Source of the DNA: a virus
Length of the DNA: 34,877 nt
Strand: one strand, 5' to 3'
Virus record (IMG/VR): IMGVR_UViG_3300031708_000002
Location: 1-34,877 of that record
Part shown: positions 4,861-16,482 of the stretch, one piece after another
Position numbering within the stretch: position 1 is the stretch's first letter
How the letters are laid out: each line of letters begins with the position of its first letter
Notes under the pieces: model-generated
Told to the model about the DNA's origin: nothing
Databases searched by the model: none
What the model saw: only the letters and a program-made list of their open reading frames with translations
Position numbers and translations under genes: made by a program

Positions 4861-6399
4861 ATGAACCACGAAAGGCTGCACGAACTGCGCCGCCGCCGCG
4901 CGGCCCTGCTTGCTGAGATGCAAAAGCTCGTGAAGCAGGAAGAGGACCCGGACGGCGAGGGCCTGTCGGAGGATCAATCCAACGAGTTCGAAGAACTCCG
5001 CACCGAACTAGCCAAGCTCGACGGCCGCATCCAGCGCCTAGAGGCTGCGCTGGCGGCCGATGCCGCTTCCGCCAATGGCAACGGTGACGACGATGGCGAC
5101 GGCGGTGACGCGCAAGAGGACGCTTTCGCCCATGGCGGCCGCCGCCGCAATGTCGGTGGCTTCCGCTTCCGCACCGACACCACGCCCGCGACGGCGAAAC
5201 GAGTGGTTAACGACAAGCCGGGCATTCGCGCCGCCACGTTCGCCTTTGGCCTGATGTATGCCCGCTTTCACAAGCTGTCGCTGGAAAAGGCCGCTGAATT
5301 CGTGGAAACCCGGTTCGGCGATGTTGCTGTGGCGAAGGCGCTTAATACCATCGTCACCGGCGAGGGTGGCGCGCTGATTCCCCAGGATTTTCTCGCCGAC
5401 CTTATCGAGCTGCTACGCGCTAACACCGTGGTGCGCGGATCGATGCCGATGACCATCGGTATGTCGATGGGCAACTTGACCATCCCTCGCCTGGCCGGTG
5501 GCTCGACCGCCGCCTATCAAGGCGAGCTGGATGACATCGTGGTCAGCCAAGAGCGGTTCGATGACGTAAACTTCGTTGCGAAAAAGTTGACCGCCATGGT
5601 TCCGGTCTCCAACGACCTGATCCGCCGCGCGCCGATCGGCGTGGAAGAAGTCGTCCGCGATGACCTCATTCAGACCGTGGCCCGCCGCGAGGATCTGGCC
5701 TTCCTGCGTGGTGATGGCCTCGACAAAGGACCGATCGGGTTCCGTTCCCTGGTGCTGCCAACGAATATGCTGGTGATCGCCGCAATCGATGACATCACCT
5801 TGCCCGGCGCTGGCCTCAACGCCGTGGTGGCCGCGCTATCCGCCATGATGTTGACGTTACAAAACGGCCTGTCGCGCATGATCAAGCCGGTATGGATCAT
5901 GGCACCGACCACCGCGCGGTTCATCGCCGTGCAGCGCGATAACGTCGGCGGCTTCTACTACAAGGACGAGATGGCGCGCGGCATGCTCGAGGGCATCCCC
6001 TACAAGCTGACGACGCAAATACCCACCAATCTCGGACTTGGCTTTGGCTCCGAAATCTACCTGGCAGCGTTCGAGGACGTGGTGATCGCCGACACTTACA
6101 ATGTGATTGTCGACGCTTCCGACGTGGCAGCTTATACCGACGGCGGAACGATGATATCGACGTTCCAGCGTGATCAGTCGCTGTTCCGCGTCATTGCCGA
6201 GCACGACTTTAACATGCGCCACCTGCAATCGCTGGCAATCGGCACCACGATCGATTGGACCTTTACCGGGCTGGCCGGTCGGCCTGGTACACCCTGGTCC
6301 ACTCAGGCGCTCAACCCAACCTGGTCGCAGGCGCCCGCGATCCGCCCGGCTACTCTCACCGGTGCGAATGCCCCGCCGCCGCTCGCCAACCCACGATAA
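4861..6399 (+). CDS. HK97-fold major capsid protein with N-terminal delta (scaffold) domain
   Basis: The 512-residue product forms the capsid shell. Residues 1-65 are strongly charged and heptad-like, as in the delta domain that acts as an internal scaffold and is removed by the S78 protease. A low-complexity Asp/Gly/Asn linker follows (about 70-85). The HK97 fold begins near 120 and includes the ALNTIVTGEGGALIPQDF segment, ADLIELLRANTVVR (N-arm and spine helix region), the LTIPRLAGGSTAAYQGE motif and the LAFLRGDG loop, all typical of phage major capsid family members. A canonical AAGGAGG lies 9 bases before the ATG, in agreement with high expression. Confidence 0.95.
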   Translation: MNHERLHELRRRRAALLAEMQKLVKQEEDPDGEGLSEDQSNEFEELRTELAKLDGRIQRLEAALAADAASANGNGDDDGDGGDAQEDAFAHGGRRRNVGGFRFRTDTTPATAKRVVNDKPGIRAATFAFGLMYARFHKLSLEKAAEFVETRFGDVAVAKALNTIVTGEGGALIPQDFLADLIELLRANTVVRGSMPMTIGMSMGNLTIPRLAGGSTAAYQGELDDIVVSQERFDDVNFVAKKLTAMVPVSNDLIRRAPIGVEEVVRDDLIQTVARREDLAFLRGDGLDKGPIGFRSLVLPTNMLVIAAIDDITLPGAGLNAVVAALSAMMLTLQNGLSRMIKPVWIMAPTTARFIAVQRDNVGGFYYKDEMARGMLEGIPYKLTTQIPTNLGLGFGSEIYLAAFEDVVIADTYNVIVDASDVAAYTDGGTMISTFQRDQSLFRVIAEHDFNMRHLQSLAIGTTIDWTFTGLAGRPGTPWSTQALNPTWSQAPAIRPATLTGANAPPPLANPR

Positions 6400-8277: not shown

Positions 8278-8927
8278 TGTTTATGGGCCTGATGATTGCC
8301 AACCTGCGGTCGAATTGCCCGGTTTTCGCCGGGCGCGTCGCTGGCGCGGGTGCCTTCAATGAAGGGCTAAAAAACTTCGCCGCCGCGATGCCGCGACCCG
8401 CCGCCTATGTCGTGCCGATCGGCCAGGACAGCGCTGGCAATCAGAGCATGGTCGGGCTGTATCAAATCTTGCAAACCACGATGGCCGTCATTGTCGAGCT
8501 GGACGCGACGGGTGATCGCCGTGGCCAGGATCCCGCGATGGGCTATGACGAGATTCAAACCGGCTTATTTTCCTGCCTGTTGAACTGGAAACCGGTCCCA
8601 TGCGCCGGACCTCGGGGCATGTATACGATCGGCGGGCACTTCCTCGACCTCGATCGCGCCCGCCTGTTCTATCAATGGGAATTCGCGCTTGACGTGACGC
8701 TGAGTGACCAGGATGGCGCGGACCTCGACATCCGCGACCCGGATTGGGCGCCGTTGCGCGATATCGTGGTCAGCCTGCCAGAGCCCACCTTCCGCACCCT
8801 GACCAAGCGAACCGACTGGTACGAATATGCCCTGTGGGACGGTGGCGACAGCCAGTGGGACGATGGCGCCAGCCAGTGGGACGAGACCCTGATACCATGG
8901 GACGATGACAGAACGATGTGGTGCTGA
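8277..8927 (+). CDS. Tail terminator-like protein (Mu gp37-like) with Trp-Asp heptad tail
   Basis: The product has 216 residues. The first 165 match the general pattern of phage tail terminator proteins: an N-terminal helix (L-M-I-A-N-L-R-S-N-C-P), PRPAAYVVPIGQ, a central V-I-V-E-L-D-A strand, YDEIQTGLFSCLLNWKP and F-Y-Q-W-E-F-A-L-D-V. Tail terminators cap the tail tube after it reaches the tape-measure length. The C-terminal 30 residues are unusual: Trp recurs exactly every seven residues at 187, 194, 201, 208 and 215, four of them followed by Asp. The ATG overlaps the previous stop (TGATG). The core function is inferred from order and pattern. Confidence 0.75.
   Translation: MFMGLMIANLRSNCPVFAGRVAGAGAFNEGLKNFAAAMPRPAAYVVPIGQDSAGNQSMVGLYQILQTTMAVIVELDATGDRRGQDPAMGYDEIQTGLFSCLLNWKPVPCAGPRGMYTIGGHFLDLDRARLFYQWEFALDVTLSDQDGADLDIRDPDWAPLRDIVVSLPEPTFRTLTKRTDWYEYALWDGGDSQWDDGASQWDETLIPWDDDRTMWC
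8834..8921 (+). repeat. 21-base tandem repeat encoding a Trp-Asp heptad
   Basis: Units of 21 bases starting with GTGGGACG are repeated in the last part of the tail terminator gene; the first two units are nearly identical and later ones diverge. Each encodes seven residues of the type W-D-x-G-x-S-Q. The repeat ends at the junction with the fibre gene. Confidence 0.75.
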
Positions 8928-11899
8928 GAGTGAACGATATCGACCCTACTGTCCCATCTGGCCCGATCGCCTACACCGCCGACCAACGTGCCAATTGGGA
9001 AGCCACCATTGCGCGCACCGATCGGTTGCAAGCCAGGTTGGACGAGGGGCCGTTTATGCGCCTGGCCGGTGGCCAAATGCGCGGCCCGCTGTTCCTTAAT
9101 GCCGATCCGCTCGACCTCACCGAGGCCGCGACAAAGCGCTACGTCGACGTTTTGATAGGGATTGGCGGCCCCTACATGCCGGACGCGCCCCGCGATGGGT
9201 TCGCCTATGGCCGAAGTAACGGCTTCTGGGGCGAGGTCCTTCCGCTCACCGGTGGCAGGCTCACCGGATCGCTGTTGCTCGCCGCCGATCCGACGCTCGC
9301 CGCTGGCGCCGCGACGAAACGCTACGTCGACGCGCGGGTGTCCGCGATCCCGGAGGCCCCAATCGATGGCGGCGCCTATGGCCGAATTAACGGCTTCTGG
9401 GGCGAGGTCCTTCCGCTCACCGGTTGCAACCTGGGAGGCCCGCTGGTACTGGCCACCGAACCCACCTCGCCGAACGAGGCGGTGACGAAAGGCTACGTCG
9501 ACGCGCGGGTGTCAAATCTGCCCGAGGCGCCGATCGATACCGCGTTCTATGGCCGCGCCAACGAGGCTTGGAAGCCGGTGCTCGGATTGGCCGGGGGCAG
9601 AATGATCGGCCCGCTGATACTGGCCGCCGATCCTGCCAATGCGCCCGAGGCCGCGACCAAGCGCTACGTCGACGCCCAATTCAGCGCAGGCGGTTTTCCC
9701 GACGCCCCGGTTGATGGCGTGCTGTATGGCCGTCAGGACGCCGCCTGGGCTGCGGTGCCGCCGCCTGGCACGGGTGGCGGTGGCATTCCCGACGCGCCCG
9801 CTGATGGCGTCCTATACGGCCGTCAGGACGCCGCCTGGACCGCGGTCCCACCGCCTGGCACGGGTGGCGGTGGCATTCCCGACGCGCCCGCTGATGGCGT
9901 CCTATACGGCCGTCAGGACGCCGCCTGGGCGCCGATCCCGCCTGGCGGCTTTGTCGAGCCGATCGGCCCCGGCACCTTTGGACGATTGCAGACCGGGACG
10001 TGGGCACGCACGGTCGTTGTCGAAGGCGATGTCATGACCGGCCCGCTGCAGGTGCCTGATGGCATCCCGGCTCGGGTTTCGCTGGCGGTGGGCGAACCTA
10101 CGACCGGATTCTACCGCTCGCCCGCGCAAGGTCTGATCGCCACGCATGAAGGCACCGGCGTGATGCTGTTCAATCGCGGCGGTTCGATGCTGGTGACCGA
10201 CCTCAGTATGCAGGGGCGCCGGATTACCGGTCTGAGCGAGCCGACCGATCCGGGCGACGCCGCCAGCAAGGAATATGTCGATTCGCAGGGCGCCGACCTG
10301 CCGACGCTCGACGCGCGCTATGTGCGCATGATCGGCGATACGATGACCGGGCCGCTGCAGGTGCCTGACGGCATGCCGAACGTCGTTTCGCTGGCGGTGG
10401 GCGAACCTACGACCGGATTCTACCGCTCGCCCGCGCAAGGTCTGATCGCCACGCATGAAAATGTCGGGGTGATGCTGTTCGGTCGCGCCGGCTCAATCCT
10501 GGCGACTGACCTCAGTATGGCGGGCCGTCGCATCACCAATCTGGACGCGCCGACCGATCCGGGCGATGCCGCCAGCAAGGGCTACGTTGACGCCCAGGGC
10601 GCCGACCTGCCGACGCTTGACGCGCGCTATGTGCGCATGATCGGCGATACGATGACCGGTCTCCTGACCTTCCAGGGCCAAAGTCTGGGCATTCTCTGGG
10701 ACCAAGGGGCGACGATCTATCACGGGCCGAATGGCTTGGTTATTCGTCGCGACGCCGCCGACAACCCCGTGACGATCGAAGGTAGTGGCGGTCTGCCGTC
10801 AACCCGTTTCCCGATCCTCACGACGGACACGGGCGTGCGGAAAACGGGCGACACGATGTCCGGGCCGCTGAACGTGCCTGACGGCACCGTCACGGTTCCC
10901 GGTTTGGGATTGGGCGCGGCTGACGGCACGGGACTATCCCGATCACTCTCAGCGATCCTACTGTGCGTGCAAGGCGCCCCATTGGTCGCATTCTCGGCCG
11001 GCGCAATACCGGCGGTGCAATTCTATCAGCCGCTGTTCGTGCTCAACAATCGCATCCAGCAGATCGGCGACGCGACCGCTGCGGGTGATGCGCTGAACCT
11101 GCGCACTGGTGATGCGCGCTATCTGCAATTGGCGACCGGTGGTTCGGTGCGAGGCGATATACAGCTTATTGCCGCGTCCGGTATCGATGGCGAGATCGGC
11201 ATTGACCTCGGTGGCCGGTTCGCCCGCATCTACTGGGGTAACGGCATCGTGCTGCGCCGTGGCGGTGGCGGCGAAAGTGCCTTTATCGAAAACAATAACG
11301 GATCAAACCGCAGCGAGATCATTACACAACAACTCGGCGACACACGCTATTTGCAACTCGCGGGCGGCGGCATCGTAGCTGGTCCTGTGCAGATTCTGAC
11401 CACGCCGGTCATCGGCAATGACGCCGCGAACAAGACTTATGTCGATCAGGCCGTGGCCGCGGCCGTTGCGCCAACTGCGTTCCGCACCTTTGCTTTCACG
11501 CCGAACGACTTTACCATTGCGGCGCCGAGCGCAGCAACGCCGTTCCTTGATGTCAACGTCACTTTGCCCGGCGGGCCGCGCAATATCCTGATCAGCATCG
11601 ACCCGGTGTTCGCGTCCAATGATCCGCAAGGCACGATGTGGGAGTTGTTCTATTCGACCGACCTAATAGCGCTCGAAAGCTCAGTCGTGGCCTACAAAAT
11701 CACCAACAATACCGCCGCTTTCTTCCGCTCATCGGCAAAGCTCGCCGCCGCTGTCGATGCCTCGGCCGGTAGCGTCCGCGTCATCCTGCGCGTGCGGTGC
11801 ACGACACTCGGCAGCCCGCTGATTCAGGTCGGCAACGGCGGCACGCTCGCGCCGACGATGCGGACCTTTGTCACCGTCCAGGACCTGGGACCCGTCTAA
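8918..11899 (+). CDS. Large modular tail fibre, placed between tail terminator and sheath genes
   Basis: This 993-residue protein is a chain of modules. The N-terminal half repeats a unit of the form LTGGxLTGxLxLAADPxxxxxAATKRYVD followed by PDAPxDGxxYGRxxxxW, a pattern found in phage tail fibres. Residues about 258-340 contain three 30-residue copies around PDAPADGVLYGRQDAAW joined by PPPGTGGGG linkers. Two near-identical 103-residue modules follow (about 370-576). The last 130 residues have no repeats and may be the receptor-binding domain. The start is GTG 8918, overlapping the previous gene by 10 bases; GTG 8930 is also possible. It is 5' of the sheath, far from the usual fibre position beside the baseplate genes. 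Two other fibre-like genes follow in the window. Confidence 0.85.
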   Translation: MVLRVNDIDPTVPSGPIAYTADQRANWEATIARTDRLQARLDEGPFMRLAGGQMRGPLFLNADPLDLTEAATKRYVDVLIGIGGPYMPDAPRDGFAYGRSNGFWGEVLPLTGGRLTGSLLLAADPTLAAGAATKRYVDARVSAIPEAPIDGGAYGRINGFWGEVLPLTGCNLGGPLVLATEPTSPNEAVTKGYVDARVSNLPEAPIDTAFYGRANEAWKPVLGLAGGRMIGPLILAADPANAPEAATKRYVDAQFSAGGFPDAPVDGVLYGRQDAAWAAVPPPGTGGGGIPDAPADGVLYGRQDAAWTAVPPPGTGGGGIPDAPADGVLYGRQDAAWAPIPPGGFVEPIGPGTFGRLQTGTWARTVVVEGDVMTGPLQVPDGIPARVSLAVGEPTTGFYRSPAQGLIATHEGTGVMLFNRGGSMLVTDLSMQGRRITGLSEPTDPGDAASKEYVDSQGADLPTLDARYVRMIGDTMTGPLQVPDGMPNVVSLAVGEPTTGFYRSPAQGLIATHENVGVMLFGRAGSILATDLSMAGRRITNLDAPTDPGDAASKGYVDAQGADLPTLDARYVRMIGDTMTGLLTFQGQSLGILWDQGATIYHGPNGLVIRRDAADNPVTIEGSGGLPSTRFPILTTDTGVRKTGDTMSGPLNVPDGTVTVPGLGLGAADGTGLSRSLSAILLCVQGAPLVAFSAGAIPAVQFYQPLFVLNNRIQQIGDATAAGDALNLRTGDARYLQLATGGSVRGDIQLIAASGIDGEIGIDLGGRFARIYWGNGIVLRRGGGGESAFIENNNGSNRSEIITQQLGDTRYLQLAGGGIVAGPVQILTTPVIGNDAANKTYVDQAVAAAVAPTAFRTFAFTPNDFTIAAPSAATPFLDVNVTLPGGPRNILISIDPVFASNDPQGTMWELFYSTDLIALESSVVAYKITNNTAAFFRSSAKLAAAVDASAGSVRVILRVRCTTLGSPLIQVGNGGTLAPTMRTFVTVQDLGPV
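9691..9930 (+). repeat. 90-base tandem repeat in fibre 1
   Basis: Three copies of a 90-base unit are present, beginning near 9694, 9784 and 9874. Copies 2 and 3 are nearly identical at DNA level over about 80 bases; copy 1 differs at scattered third positions. Each encodes 30 residues with PDAPxDGVLYGRQDAAW plus a Pro/Gly linker. Copy number is likely to vary by slippage or recombination. Confidence 0.85.
10027..10644 (+). repeat. 309-base tandem duplication in fibre 1
   Basis: Two 309-base copies (10027-10335 and 10336-10644) encode a 103-residue module running from a MTGPLQVPDG segment to DARYVRMIGD. Stretches of 75 bases (10076-10150 versus 10385-10459) are identical between copies, so the duplication is recent or kept uniform by recombination. 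Confidence 0.88.
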
Positions 11900-12122: not shown

Positions 12123-13601
12123 ATGTCTGGGTCAATCAACTTTACCTATTACCCGACCTCCAACCGGGTGCCCGGCGTCTATGTAGAAATGGACCCCTCG
12201 CAAGCCAACACCGCGACCGAGCTGCAACGCTCGCTACTGATCGGCCAGACATTGGCCTCCGGTTCCGCTGTGGCCGATATTCCCGTCATCGTCCAATCAC
12301 TTGCCCAGGTGGTCGACCTGTGCGGCGCCGGATCGATGCTGGCGGCGATGGCCGCGCGATACCTGACGATTGACCAGTTCGGCCCGCTTTACATCCTGCC
12401 GCTTAAGGACAACACCGCCGCCGTCGCCGCAGTGTCCACTCTGACCGTGACCGGAGCCGCCACCGCCTCGGGGACGATCAACCTGTATATCGCTGGCACG
12501 CTGGTGCAGGCCGCGGTCTATGTCGGCGACACCCCGACCGCTGTGGCCGCCGCTCTTACAGCCGCGATCACAGCGAATGCCAACCTGCCATGCGCCGCCG
12601 CCGCCGCCGCCGGTGTCATCACCCTGACCGCCAAGAATAAGGGCCTGGCAGCCAACGACATCGATCTGACCTTGAACTATCTGGGTCCGATGGGTGGCGA
12701 ATATCCGGTGCCTGGCGTCGGCATCACCATTGTGAAGTTTGCCGGTGGCACCGCCAACCCGCTGTTGGTCGACGCCCTCGGCAATCTGCTAGATACCACC
12801 TTTGACTTTATCGGCATGCCGTATAACGACACCGCCTCGCTGAATGCGATGGAGGAATTCCTTTCCGACGCCATCGGCCGCTGGGCGTGGAATGAGGCGC
12901 TGTATGGCGGGGCGTTCTGTGCCTATCGCGGAACGCTTGGCCAATCGATCGCATTCGGTGAAACCCGCAATGACCAACATATGTCGGTGATGCCGTTCCA
13001 AGGCAGTCCCGACGCGGTGTGGATTTGGGCCGCCGAAGTCACCGCCTGGTGCGCGGCCAGCCTACGCGTTGACCCTGGCTTGCCGCTGCAATACATCACT
13101 ACCACGCTAAAGGCGCCGCAGATTGCCGACCGCTGGTCGCTCGGCGAGCGGAATACGCTGCTGTATTCTGGCCTGTCATCGTTCCGCGTTGGCGACGATA
13201 ACTCGGTCATCATGGAACGCATGGCGACCACCTATCAAAAGAACGCCGCCGGGGCCACCGACAATTCATATCTTGACGTTGAAACAATGTATGGGCTGAT
13301 GTTCGTGGCGCGCGACCTGACCAACTACCTACTGACCCGCTACGCGCGCAAGAAGCTCGTTTCGGATACGACGGTGATCCTGGCAGGCTCGAATTGTGTC
13401 ACCGCGCCGCTGATCCGCGCCTCGATCATCAGCGAATACCGCGTGCTCGAGGCAGACGGCTACGTGCAAAATAGCGCGACCTTCGCCAAGAACCTGGTGG
13501 TGCAGAATGCCGGCAGTGGACTGGTGAAGGTGCTGGCGCCGGTGGATCTGGTGAACCAGCTTCGACAAATCGCGATCCTGTTGCAGTTCCGCAAGAGCTA
13601 A
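12123..13601 (+). CDS. Contractile tail sheath protein (Mu gpL-like)
   Basis: The 492-residue product shows that the tail is contractile. It opens with the sheath motif NRVPGVYVEMDPSQAN, then the RSLLIGQ strand. A middle domain carries repeats of T-V-T-G-x-A-x-x-x-G-T-I-N-L-Y-I and A-x-V-Y-V-G-D-T-P, as in Mu-type sheaths. The C-terminal part (P-L-Q-Y-I-T-T-T-L-K-A-P and NTLLYSGLSSFRV) is the conserved sheath core. The sheath polymerises around the tube and shortens to drive the tube through the envelope. AAGGAG precedes the ATG. Confidence 0.95.
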   Translation: MSGSINFTYYPTSNRVPGVYVEMDPSQANTATELQRSLLIGQTLASGSAVADIPVIVQSLAQVVDLCGAGSMLAAMAARYLTIDQFGPLYILPLKDNTAAVAAVSTLTVTGAATASGTINLYIAGTLVQAAVYVGDTPTAVAAALTAAITANANLPCAAAAAAGVITLTAKNKGLAANDIDLTLNYLGPMGGEYPVPGVGITIVKFAGGTANPLLVDALGNLLDTTFDFIGMPYNDTASLNAMEEFLSDAIGRWAWNEALYGGAFCAYRGTLGQSIAFGETRNDQHMSVMPFQGSPDAVWIWAAEVTAWCAASLRVDPGLPLQYITTTLKAPQIADRWSLGERNTLLYSGLSSFRVGDDNSVIMERMATTYQKNAAGATDNSYLDVETMYGLMFVARDLTNYLLTRYARKKLVSDTTVILAGSNCVTAPLIRASIISEYRVLEADGYVQNSATFAKNLVVQNAGSGLVKVLAPVDLVNQLRQIAILLQFRKS

Positions 13602-13616: not shown

Positions 13617-13982
13617 ATGGCGAATTGCACCCCGCTTGCCGGCGTGACCGGCATCACGATCGACGGCAACGCTTATATGCTGGTGAGCGACCTCACCTGG
13701 TCGCCGACCAAATGGAAACGGGAAACCTTGCTTGGCCTCGACAGCGTGCACGGGTTCTCAGAAGTGCCCGCGCAAGGCTTCGTAGAGGGCATGCTCCGCG
13801 ATAGCGGCGACATCACCGTGGGCGACTTCAACCTGATGCGCTGCGTTGAAGTGCTGGTGTCCCTGGCCAACGGCAAGATTGTCGGCGGCGCCAACATGTG
13901 GTGCGTGTCCGCGCTCGAAGTGAAGGCCGCTGAAGGCACCTTCCAGGTGCGTTTTGACGGTGTGTCGGTGGACGAAAACTGA
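13617..13982 (+). CDS. Tail tube protein (Mu gpM-like)
   Basis: At 121 residues this matches the Mu-type tail tube family in size and pattern: an N-terminal G-I-T-I-D-G-N-A-Y segment, W-S-P-T-K-W-K-R-E-T-L-L-G-L-D (the conserved R-E-x-L-x-G-x-D/H region), GFSEVPAQGFVEG, and a D-I-T-V-G-D-F strand. Tube subunits stack as hexamers inside the sheath. A GGAAGGAGTAAG ribosome site precedes the ATG. The stop TGA overlaps the ATG of the next gene by one base. Confidence 0.93.
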   Translation: MANCTPLAGVTGITIDGNAYMLVSDLTWSPTKWKRETLLGLDSVHGFSEVPAQGFVEGMLRDSGDITVGDFNLMRCVEVLVSLANGKIVGGANMWCVSALEVKAAEGTFQVRFDGVSVDEN

Positions 13983-14377
13983 TGGCCGACCCCAAGCACG
14001 CCAACGGCGCCGATGCCGGACTAGATGCAACGATGACGATCCGCCTCGACCCGCCGGTGGTGACCGGAGGCGCGACGCATGATGAATTGATCCTCCGCGA
14101 ACCGAGTTCCGGGGCAATGCGCGACGCTGAAAAGGAGCTTGGCATCGGTCCGCCTGGCTCATCTTCGATCGCGCAAATGTCCGCCTATAAAATCGCCGTG
14201 GTGGCGGCTGGCGCCCGCGTCAACCGCGCGGTGATCGAACGCGCGCGCAATAGCGAGGTCAACGCAGCCTACGATTTTTTGGCAAAACTATTAGAGCTTG
14301 GCCGAGTAACTGGCCCGAACTTGTCGCCGACCTTGCCCGGTTCTGGGGATGGGGACCAGCCGATGCCTGGGGCCTGA
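13982..14377 (+). CDS. Tail assembly chaperone, unshifted product (Mu gp41-like)
   Basis: The zero-frame product has 131 residues. The segment MTIRLDPPVVTGGATHDELILREPSSGAMRD matches Mu gp41-type tail assembly proteins, and the remainder is helical. Such chaperones bind the tape measure and recruit tube subunits. After codon 98 the frame passes through a TTTTTTG slippery site; the zero-frame extension beyond it (LGRVTGPNLSPTLPGSG...) is short and looks non-conserved, as expected when the useful extension lies in the -1 frame. The longer shifted product is listed separately. Confidence 0.88.
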   Translation: MADPKHANGADAGLDATMTIRLDPPVVTGGATHDELILREPSSGAMRDAEKELGIGPPGSSSIAQMSAYKIAVVAAGARVNRAVIERARNSEVNAAYDFLAKLLELGRVTGPNLSPTLPGSGDGDQPMPGA

Positions 14378-14454
14378 CCGGAACCGAGTTGGTGTGGTGG
14401 GCCAGGCAATCCGATCGCATCGCCGCGCGAGAAGCTGAGGCAAGGCGCCAATAG
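13982..14454 (+). CDS. Tail assembly chaperone, -1 frameshift product with GpE-like tail
   Basis: Slipping back one base at 14275-14281 makes a 157-residue protein: 100 residues of the gp41-like chaperone followed by 57 residues read in the -1 frame. The extension contains WPELVADLARFWGWGP, then LTGTELVWWARQSDR, the pattern of P2 GpE-family tail proteins (D-x-A-x-x-F-x-W-x-P ... L-x-x-x-E-L-x-x-W). Its stop (TAG 14452-14454) is directly followed by the tape measure ATG at 14455, so it fills the gap exactly. Lambda G-GT, P2 E-E' and Mu gp41/42 use the same arrangement at this map position. The shifted protein is expected at low level and would bind the tape measure. Confidence 0.88.
14275..14281 (+). 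other. Programmed -1 frameshift site T TTT TTG
   Basis: The heptamer is in the correct phase: codons read GAT TTT TTG in the zero frame, and TTT TTT after slipping. This is the same T6G type reported for the P2 E/E' tail chaperone. A 57-codon open frame follows in -1. No strong downstream hairpin was recognised by eye. Confidence 0.88.
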
Positions 14455-16482
14455 ATGGCCGGCTATTCCGTCACATATTCCGTTGTCGACCAGGCGACGG
14501 CGCAAATCGACGCCATCAACCGGCGCATCGTGCAAATGCGCGCGCCGTTGGAACGCCAGGCGAAAAGCCTGCAAAAGTTCGTCGACGTGTCGGGCCTCAA
14601 GAATGTCGCCACCGGGTTCGGCGAGATTGGCAAGCAGGCGTTCGGTGCGTTTTCGGAAATGTCCAAAATGGTGCCCGTCCTTGGCACCATCGGCAGCGCG
14701 ACCACCGTTGCTGGGCTGGTCAAGATGGCAACCGCGTTTGCCAGCATGTCGCGCGAGCTGGTGCAGAACGCCGACCGGATCGGCGTGACCTCGCAAAAGC
14801 TGCAAGAACTCGAAACCATGATGCGGCTGACCGGCGGGTCCGCCGCCGACATGGACTCGACCCTGCAAAGCCTGACCACCATTTCGCGCAACGCCGCGCT
14901 TGGCCTCGACCAAAACGCCCGCGCCGCGTTCAACCGGCTGAACATCCAATTGCGCGACGCCAACGGCCAGTTCCGCTCGGCCGCCGACCTGTTGCCCGAA
15001 CTGATGACCAAAATCGGCCAGCTTAAGGACCCCACCGACCGCGCGCGCGTGGCCGCCGCCACGCTGGGGGACGCGCAAAACAAGGTCTACGAGTCGTTTA
15101 TTCACTCGTCTAAATCGTGGTCCGAATGGCAAACCGAGGCGGCCGGATATCCCAAGCTGACCGACCAACAAACCGCCGCCTATCAACGTTTCAGCGAGTC
15201 GATTGGCAGACTCACGCAAGGCTTTTCGTCGCTCGGCGAGCAAGTGGGCGTGACGATCGCGACCGCCCTAACGCCGCTTGTCAACTGGGCGGGCGACTGG
15301 GTGAAAGTGCACACCCCCGCCATTGCTGGCGGCATCGATACGCTGATCACCAAACACCAGGACCTGGCAGCGGCGGGCGCTGCGGTGCTGTCATTCTTTT
15401 CCCTCAAGTTTGCCGCTGGCCTGATCGGCGCCGTCGGCCGCATCGCCTCATCGTTCGGCCTGGTCGGCACCGGAACGCTCGGCGCTGGCGGCGCTGGATT
15501 GCTGGGCGCGCTCGGTTCCGTGCTCGCGCTGATCACCGCCGCCGTTGCTGCGAACAAAGCGTTGCAGGCGGTGACGCCCACCGTGGAAAACCTGTTGTGG
15601 GGCAAGGACACGTCCAAGGACGTTGAACGCCTGGCGCAAGCCAGCCACCAACGATTGACGGGCCTCGGCGTGCCTGAATGGATGACGAACATCCTGGCGC
15701 CGACCACCGGCGAACCGACCGGGCCACCGCCTGGCGCGGCGCCTGGCCTGGCCACCGGCCCGCGCGTCAACGCCCTGCCCACGCCCTCGACCTCCCCATT
15801 GCCCGCACCGATGCGGACTCCTGGCTTCTATCAATTGCCCGAGCCGACGCCCTCGGCCAAAATGCAAAGCGAACGCGCGAAACAGGCTTACGATTTTTTC
15901 CGGTCGCGCGGCTGGTCCGACGCCGCCGCTACGGGTCTCGTTGCCCGTCAACAACGTGAAAGCAATTTCAACCCGACCCTGCCGGGCGACGCTGGCCAGG
16001 CATACGGGGCTATGCAATGGCACCCCGACCGCCAGGCGAATTTTAAGCAGGTGTTCGGTCACGACATCCGGCAATCGACCTATCAGGAGCAATTGGAATT
16101 CCAGGACTGGGAGTTGCGCAACACTGAGAAGCGTTCGGGCGCCCTACTCGCCAATCCCAACCTGACCCCGGCGCAAGCGGGCGACATCGTGTCGCGCGAT
16201 TATATCCGACCTTTCGACAAGGAGGGCGAGGCGCAAAAGACCGGCGCGCTGGCTAGCCAGTACTCGAGTCAATACGCCGCCGCCGCCCCTCCCGTGGCCG
16301 CTGGGGCGCCCGTGCAAACCGCCGCTGCAGGTGCACCTGGCGCACCTGGCGCCGCTGGCAAGGTTGCGGTGTCGATCACTCACGTAAACCCACCGCCTAA
16401 CACTGCCATCACCGCGACGGGATCGGGCGCCGTTGATGTCGAGCCGCCGCGCACCGAACGCCAACAACTGGCCGCCGCATGA
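14455..16482 (+). CDS. Tape measure protein with C-terminal tail lysozyme domain
   Basis: This 675-residue protein sets tail length. Residues 1-290 are helical with few aromatic residues. Hydrophobic stretches at about 310-375 (VLSFFSLKFAAGLIGAVG and GAGGAGLLGALGSVLALITAAVAA) are typical of tape measures and could insert into the inner membrane. Residues 415-460 are Pro-rich. Residues 468-610 form a phage tail lysozyme domain: AYDFFRSRGWSDAAATGLV, then RESNFNP with predicted catalytic Glu502, and GQAYGAMQWHPDR. This would open peptidoglycan during injection. A collagen-like GAPGAPGAAG run follows. At roughly 0.15 nm per residue the protein fits a tail of about 100 nm or less. The start follows the shifted chaperone stop directly. 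Confidence 0.93.
   Translation: MAGYSVTYSVVDQATAQIDAINRRIVQMRAPLERQAKSLQKFVDVSGLKNVATGFGEIGKQAFGAFSEMSKMVPVLGTIGSATTVAGLVKMATAFASMSRELVQNADRIGVTSQKLQELETMMRLTGGSAADMDSTLQSLTTISRNAALGLDQNARAAFNRLNIQLRDANGQFRSAADLLPELMTKIGQLKDPTDRARVAAATLGDAQNKVYESFIHSSKSWSEWQTEAAGYPKLTDQQTAAYQRFSESIGRLTQGFSSLGEQVGVTIATALTPLVNWAGDWVKVHTPAIAGGIDTLITKHQDLAAAGAAVLSFFSLKFAAGLIGAVGRIASSFGLVGTGTLGAGGAGLLGALGSVLALITAAVAANKALQAVTPTVENLLWGKDTSKDVERLAQASHQRLTGLGVPEWMTNILAPTTGEPTGPPPGAAPGLATGPRVNALPTPSTSPLPAPMRTPGFYQLPEPTPSAKMQSERAKQAYDFFRSRGWSDAAATGLVARQQRESNFNPTLPGDAGQAYGAMQWHPDRQANFKQVFGHDIRQSTYQEQLEFQDWELRNTEKRSGALLANPNLTPAQAGDIVSRDYIRPFDKEGEAQKTGALASQYSSQYAAAAPPVAAGAPVQTAAAGAPGAPGAAGKVAVSITHVNPPPNTAITATGSGAVDVEPPRTERQQLAAA

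Follow-up and report, generated by a model that had tools for sequence, protein, structure and literature searches.

Gene Arrangement at the Tail Locus

The window, i.e. the whole stretch of 34,877 nucleotides analyzed here, originates from an uncultured soil phage deposited as an IMG/VR record (IMGVR_UViG_3300031708_000002). Its tail region contains the following features.

12123–13601, plus strand: tail sheath protein of the Mu gpL type, 492 amino acids (phrog_165, E = 1e-161; tblastn matches to phiNP, BZS1, phiKM1, and Mu)
13617–13982, plus strand: tail tube protein of the Mu gpM type, 121 amino acids (PF10618, E = 4e-25)
13982–14377, plus strand: tail assembly chaperone, unshifted, 131 amino acids, Phage_TAC_7/P2 E/Mu gp41 family (PF10109, E = 8.5e-6; location between tube and tape measure)
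14275–14281, plus strand: slippery heptamer T_TTT_TTG, predicted -1 ribosomal frameshifting (phase; conservation in relatives)
14281–14454, plus strand: GpE-like domain, -1 frame extension of 57 codons plus TAG (profiles; dN/dS)
14455–16482, plus strand: tape measure protein with a Phage_lysozyme2 domain, 675 amino acids (phrog_9570, E = 1e-65; PF18013, E = 1.5e-23)

Mu-type baseplate genes follow downstream of the tape measure gene, in whose product the Phage_lysozyme2 domain comprises residues 473–604. The head genes are of the HK97 type (TerL, PF20441; portal, PF04860; capsid, PF05065), an integrase (phrog_1) and a RecT-like protein are also encoded, and no Mu-type transposase was seen among the window ORFs that were scanned. 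Given the HK97-type head genes, the integrase, and the RecT-like protein, the Mu-like part of this phage is its tail; the head is not of the Mu type. Between the head-completion genes and the sheath gene, a gene at 8918–11899 encodes a repetitive, fiber-like or fibritin-like protein of 993 residues.

The chaperone reading frame starts with ATG at 13982 and, when read unshifted, comprises 131 codons up to the stop at 14375–14377. Its product matched the Phage_TAC_7 family (PF10109; P2 E, Mu 41, and HP1 14) with 26.2 bits, above the curated cut-off of 25, and the gene lies between those for tail tube and tape measure as in other members of this family, in agreement with the Mu-type tail chaperone proposed in an earlier note on this DNA. 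DNA and protein searches of named phages with the chaperone gave no usable match. Codons 98–100 (GAT TTT TTG) set T_TTT_TTG in phase at 14275–14281, exactly where the earlier note had placed it (reading phase ...AAC GCA GCC TAC GAT TTT TTG GCA AAA...). The -1 frame from 14281 (GKTIRAWPSNWPELVADLARFWGWGPADAWGLTGTELVWWARQSDRIAAREAEARRQ) comprises the 57 codons that had been claimed and ends with TAG at 14452–14454, directly before the tape measure ATG at 14455. The predicted shift product thus consists of 100 chaperone residues plus 57, i.e. 157 residues. On both strands of the window TTTTTTR occurs three times, compared with 3.09 expected; because this count is not unusual, the conservation of the heptamer was used as the test instead.

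Conservation of the Slippery Site and the -1 Frame

A sheath scan yielded 80 related viral loci (62–82% identity), of which 75 stretches, the window's included, were long enough for comparison. Both chaperone and extension were located in 74 of these 75, always with an offset of -1 (74/74), and 70 of the 74 regions have an in-phase T TTT TTR at the corresponding position. In the remaining stretch (L051), an insert shifts the chaperone out to the end of the compared region. After position 4996, L051 contains an inserted Gly-Leu-Pro-rich reading frame between sheath and tube, and enlarged gaps before the chaperone were also observed in a few other relatives, e.g. L005 and L011.

After duplicates were collapsed, 66 distinct sequences were obtained, all of which encode Phe-Leu at the site (66/66). 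The dipeptide is spelled T TTT TTR in 62, T TTT CTN in three, and A TTC CTT in one of the 66. In the rest of the gene, TTT accounts for 31% of the Phe codons and TTR for 23% of the Leu codons, and at these frequencies T TTT TTR would be expected in approximately 5 of the 66 sequences rather than in the 62 found. The related sequences are not independent owing to shared descent, yet the codons around the site vary freely. The position and conservation of the heptamer exceed chance.

None of the 53 complete, distinct extensions contains a stop in the -1 frame (0/53), compared with 53/53 and 43/53 for the other two frames. The median dN/dS was 0.37 for the extension and 0.33 beyond its double-coded part (overall about 0.35), and positions P8, W24, W40, Q43, and R46 are invariant. 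The extension is under purifying selection. With an open frame, a dN/dS below 1, and a heptamer kept in 70/74 members of the window's lineage, the earlier interpretation of the site as -1 recoding is very likely right.

Possible stimulators of slippage were also considered, and those of the window are weak or absent. Over the relatives, a downstream stem showed a modest enrichment (mean z of -1.06 for 40 nt after the spacer) with no consensus fold, and in the window the stretches downstream of the site had folding z values between about -1 and +1. SD-like 4-mers occur 8–20 nt from the site in 41 of 62 relatives. An upstream SD stimulator was rejected, since the choice between GAG and GAA is the same as in the rest of the gene (Fisher p = 0.5) and no SD-like stimulator is present in the window at the usual distance upstream of the slip site; conserved Glu-Ala codons may account for how often the 4-mers occur in relatives. 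T_TTT_TTG is not among the most efficient E. coli motifs listed in PMC4066793.

Identity of the Extension Domain

Searched alone, the window's 57 residues matched phrog_10636 (unknown function) and phrog_1756 (tail protein), as did 52/53 and 36/53 family members, respectively. They gave no match to Phage_P2_GpE (PF06528), a family that was matched by 16 of 53 relatives with a best E value of 2.9e-6. The profile of the extension family matched P2's own extension (probability 93.6%, 2.1e-7) and a set of named -1 phages to which P2 belongs (probability 99.2%, E = 1.6e-19). Judged by these profile matches, the window's extension domain and that of P2 GpE are homologous, and the GpE-like assignment of the earlier note is upheld. 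The -2 extensions of Mu and its kin matched those of the named -1 phages (93.8%, E = 1.7e-7; reversed control 1.4%), which at the profile level identifies the two as one and the same domain. The comparison of the -2 extensions with the window's own family was not significant (2.1%).

Frameshift Direction among Mu-Type Tails

A Mu-type sheath together with an in-phase T6N and an open -1 extension was found, among others, in phiNP, BZS1, PG1, SfV, ST64B, PBb002, YPCBV-1, BgVeeders33, YeP1, DVM-2008, AH07, EPP-1, and phiAP1. When genomes were scanned with the window's sheath as the only query, no match was obtained, whereas a sheath alignment gave 80 prophages; these lean towards the kin of that alignment, and none of the hosts exceeded about 50% sheath identity. 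Of these 80 prophages, 68 carry the extension in the -1 frame; an in-phase T6N is present in 59 of the 68 and another X_XXY_YYZ heptamer, e.g. G_GGT_TTT, in the other nine. Prophages of Yersinia, Photorhabdus, and Azospirillum, among others, share the layout, site, and frame. In Mu, D108, MuM16-2, martha, B23, and Pmp9, as well as in Actinobacillus, Pseudodesulfovibrio, and a Phycisphaerales MAG, the extension is in the -2 frame and GGGGGCGA is conserved. In the sheath tree, -2 is restricted to the part around Mu. Even close phages can differ in direction: B23 (L099; -2 at GGGGGCGA) and YPCBV-1 (L094; -1 at T TTT TTG) are fully supported sisters by sheath.

Among the sampled phages with a Mu-type sheath, -1 at T6N is the usual site, and Mu with its nearest -2 kin is the exception. 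The earlier note had seen in this phage a combination of a Mu-like tail and P2-like recoding; a reading of this combination as out of the ordinary was not supported, as the in-phase T6N is found in many Mu-tail phages and in 59/68 prophages. The -2 shift of Mu is already described as exceptional in a passage of PMC4378225 that cites Xu, Hendrix and Duda (2004), and a conserved -1 arrangement, with -2 in Mu, has been reported (PMC2628397, PMC5009743).

Among the known systems closest to the window are BZS1, phiNP, SfV, ST64B, PG1, and the prophages, in which a Mu-type sheath, tube, and chaperone, an in-phase T6N, a -1 GpE-like extension, and the tape measure are arranged in the same way; these differ in sequence only (sheath identity about 39–52%). 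The nearest named relatives in the sheath tree, phiKM1 and phiAP1 from Acetobacteraceae, share the window's starred group of -1 phages and have a -1 extension, but have two chaperone domains in tandem upstream of the slip site (L086, L089), and in phiKM1 G_GGT_TTT replaces T6N. With P2 E/E+E' the window shares the heptamer T TTT TTG, its phase, its position before the tape measure, and a homologous extension, whereas its sheath and tube are of the Mu type and its chaperone N-part is linked to P2 E only via the common Pfam family PF10109. Mu gp41 and its kin have the same gene order, but shift by -2 rather than -1 and have a conserved GGGGGCGA in place of T6N; the window's extension, being in the -1 frame, does not belong to this -2 class. 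As in the lambda G/GT class, the window's extension is shifted, under coding selection, and without a start of its own.

As the earlier note had anticipated, the fused product is missing from annotation: it was present in none of the 21 Mu-tail records opened, a stand-alone ORF over the extension was annotated in three of the 21, and the P2 record has a join. The second product is thus omitted from nearly all records of Mu-type-tail phages.

Proposed Mechanism and Alternatives

The window very likely contains the standard tail-assembly-chaperone frameshift of a Mu-type contractile-tail phage. We infer that most ribosomes would read 13982–14377 to give the 131-residue chaperone, while a minority would slip by -1 on U_UUU_UUG, with the tRNAs re-pairing to UUU_UUU, and produce the 157-residue fusion with the GpE-like end. 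In analogy to lambda gpG/gpGT, the tape measure would be coated by the common N-terminal part, and the GpE-like part would serve to recruit tail-tube subunits. In lambda, the short form and the fusion load the tape measure, start tube assembly, and leave before the tail is finished; the shift rate of P2-type phages is two to three times that of lambda (PMC5009743).

Slippage could also take place during transcription at the T6 run, giving some mRNAs in which both parts are fused in frame. Such a homopolymer run exists and is extended to seven or eight T in some relatives, but six T are short for polymerase slippage, and the phase is strictly X_XXY_YYZ. Other members have G_GGU_UUU or C_CCU_UUR without a long run, which fits tRNA re-pairing and not polymerase slippage, and this alternative is considered very unlikely.

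Slightly less probable still is an extension translated as a separate small gene from an internal start, with no fusion formed. In the Caballeronia prophages L149 and L155 and in phage IPK, a homologous ORF apparently begins at a GTG of its own downstream of the chaperone stop, and stand-alone ORFs are annotated in the records of D108, YPCBV-1, and ST405-OXA48phi1.1. However, 61 of the 66 distinct sequences, among them the window, have no ATG, GTG, or TTG able to start the extension alone; the window's -1 frame is closed at 14251–14253, and none of these codons occurs before the conserved core. An internal start also leaves the conserved heptamer unexplained. That the -1 frame is open merely by chance, as the expected number of T6R sites in the window might suggest (3 versus 3.09), has a negligible probability in view of its conservation in 74/74 regions, a dN/dS well below 1, and the homology to GpE.

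Relatives with Altered Slip Sites

In some relatives the heptamer is reduced. Four contigs from different metagenomes have T TTT CTN (GAT TTT CTN) in place of T TTT TTR (L016, 8406–8419; L018, 8136–8149; L021, 7600–7613; L255, 1388–1401), with the -1 extension intact. The extensions of L018 and L021 differ by five base changes, none of which alters an amino acid of the -1 frame. With an intact frame and exclusively synonymous changes, the extension of these four phages is very probably expressed. In the sheath tree, L016, L018, and L021 are placed among T6R phages, so that loss of the heptamer in these three, or exchange of the gene, is probable. The earlier note had counted loss of the T6 run beside an open extension as evidence against recoding; such a loss does occur in this one small sub-clade, but the sub-clade retains U_UU.U, a known weaker -1 motif. 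As U_UU.U ranks among the top three tetramers for slippage in E. coli (PMC4066793), these phages probably reach the extension by slipping on the tetramer. A sub-clade with a reduced heptamer and a selected extension is the one mildly new point of this analysis, and as a natural variant it offers a simple test of the slippage level needed for tail assembly. Otherwise, a clade of uncultured phages is added to a type of recoding long known from lambda and P2.

The routes to the GpE-like domain would comprise -1 at T6N, -1 at other heptamers, -1 at U_UU.U (L016, L018, L021, and L255), -2 at GGGGGCGA, and perhaps a separate start (Caballeronia). It is possible, and we propose it tentatively, that Mu-type tails retain the GpE-like domain while the route to it changes, the direction of the shift being the exchangeable part and the product ratio what is selected.

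Further deviations were observed in single members. L071 lacks T6R at this position, and C_CCT_TTA and G_GGT_TTC lie in phase slightly further on. L153 and L157 (Mesosutterella) have the extension in the +1/-2 frame, close to CCT CTT TTT GGA, which is neither T6N nor GGGGGCGA. In the Caballeronia prophages L149 and L155 and in phage IPK (L088), the GpE-like ORF is seemingly started separately, with no slip; in L149, GAGGGG and then GTG follow the chaperone stop.
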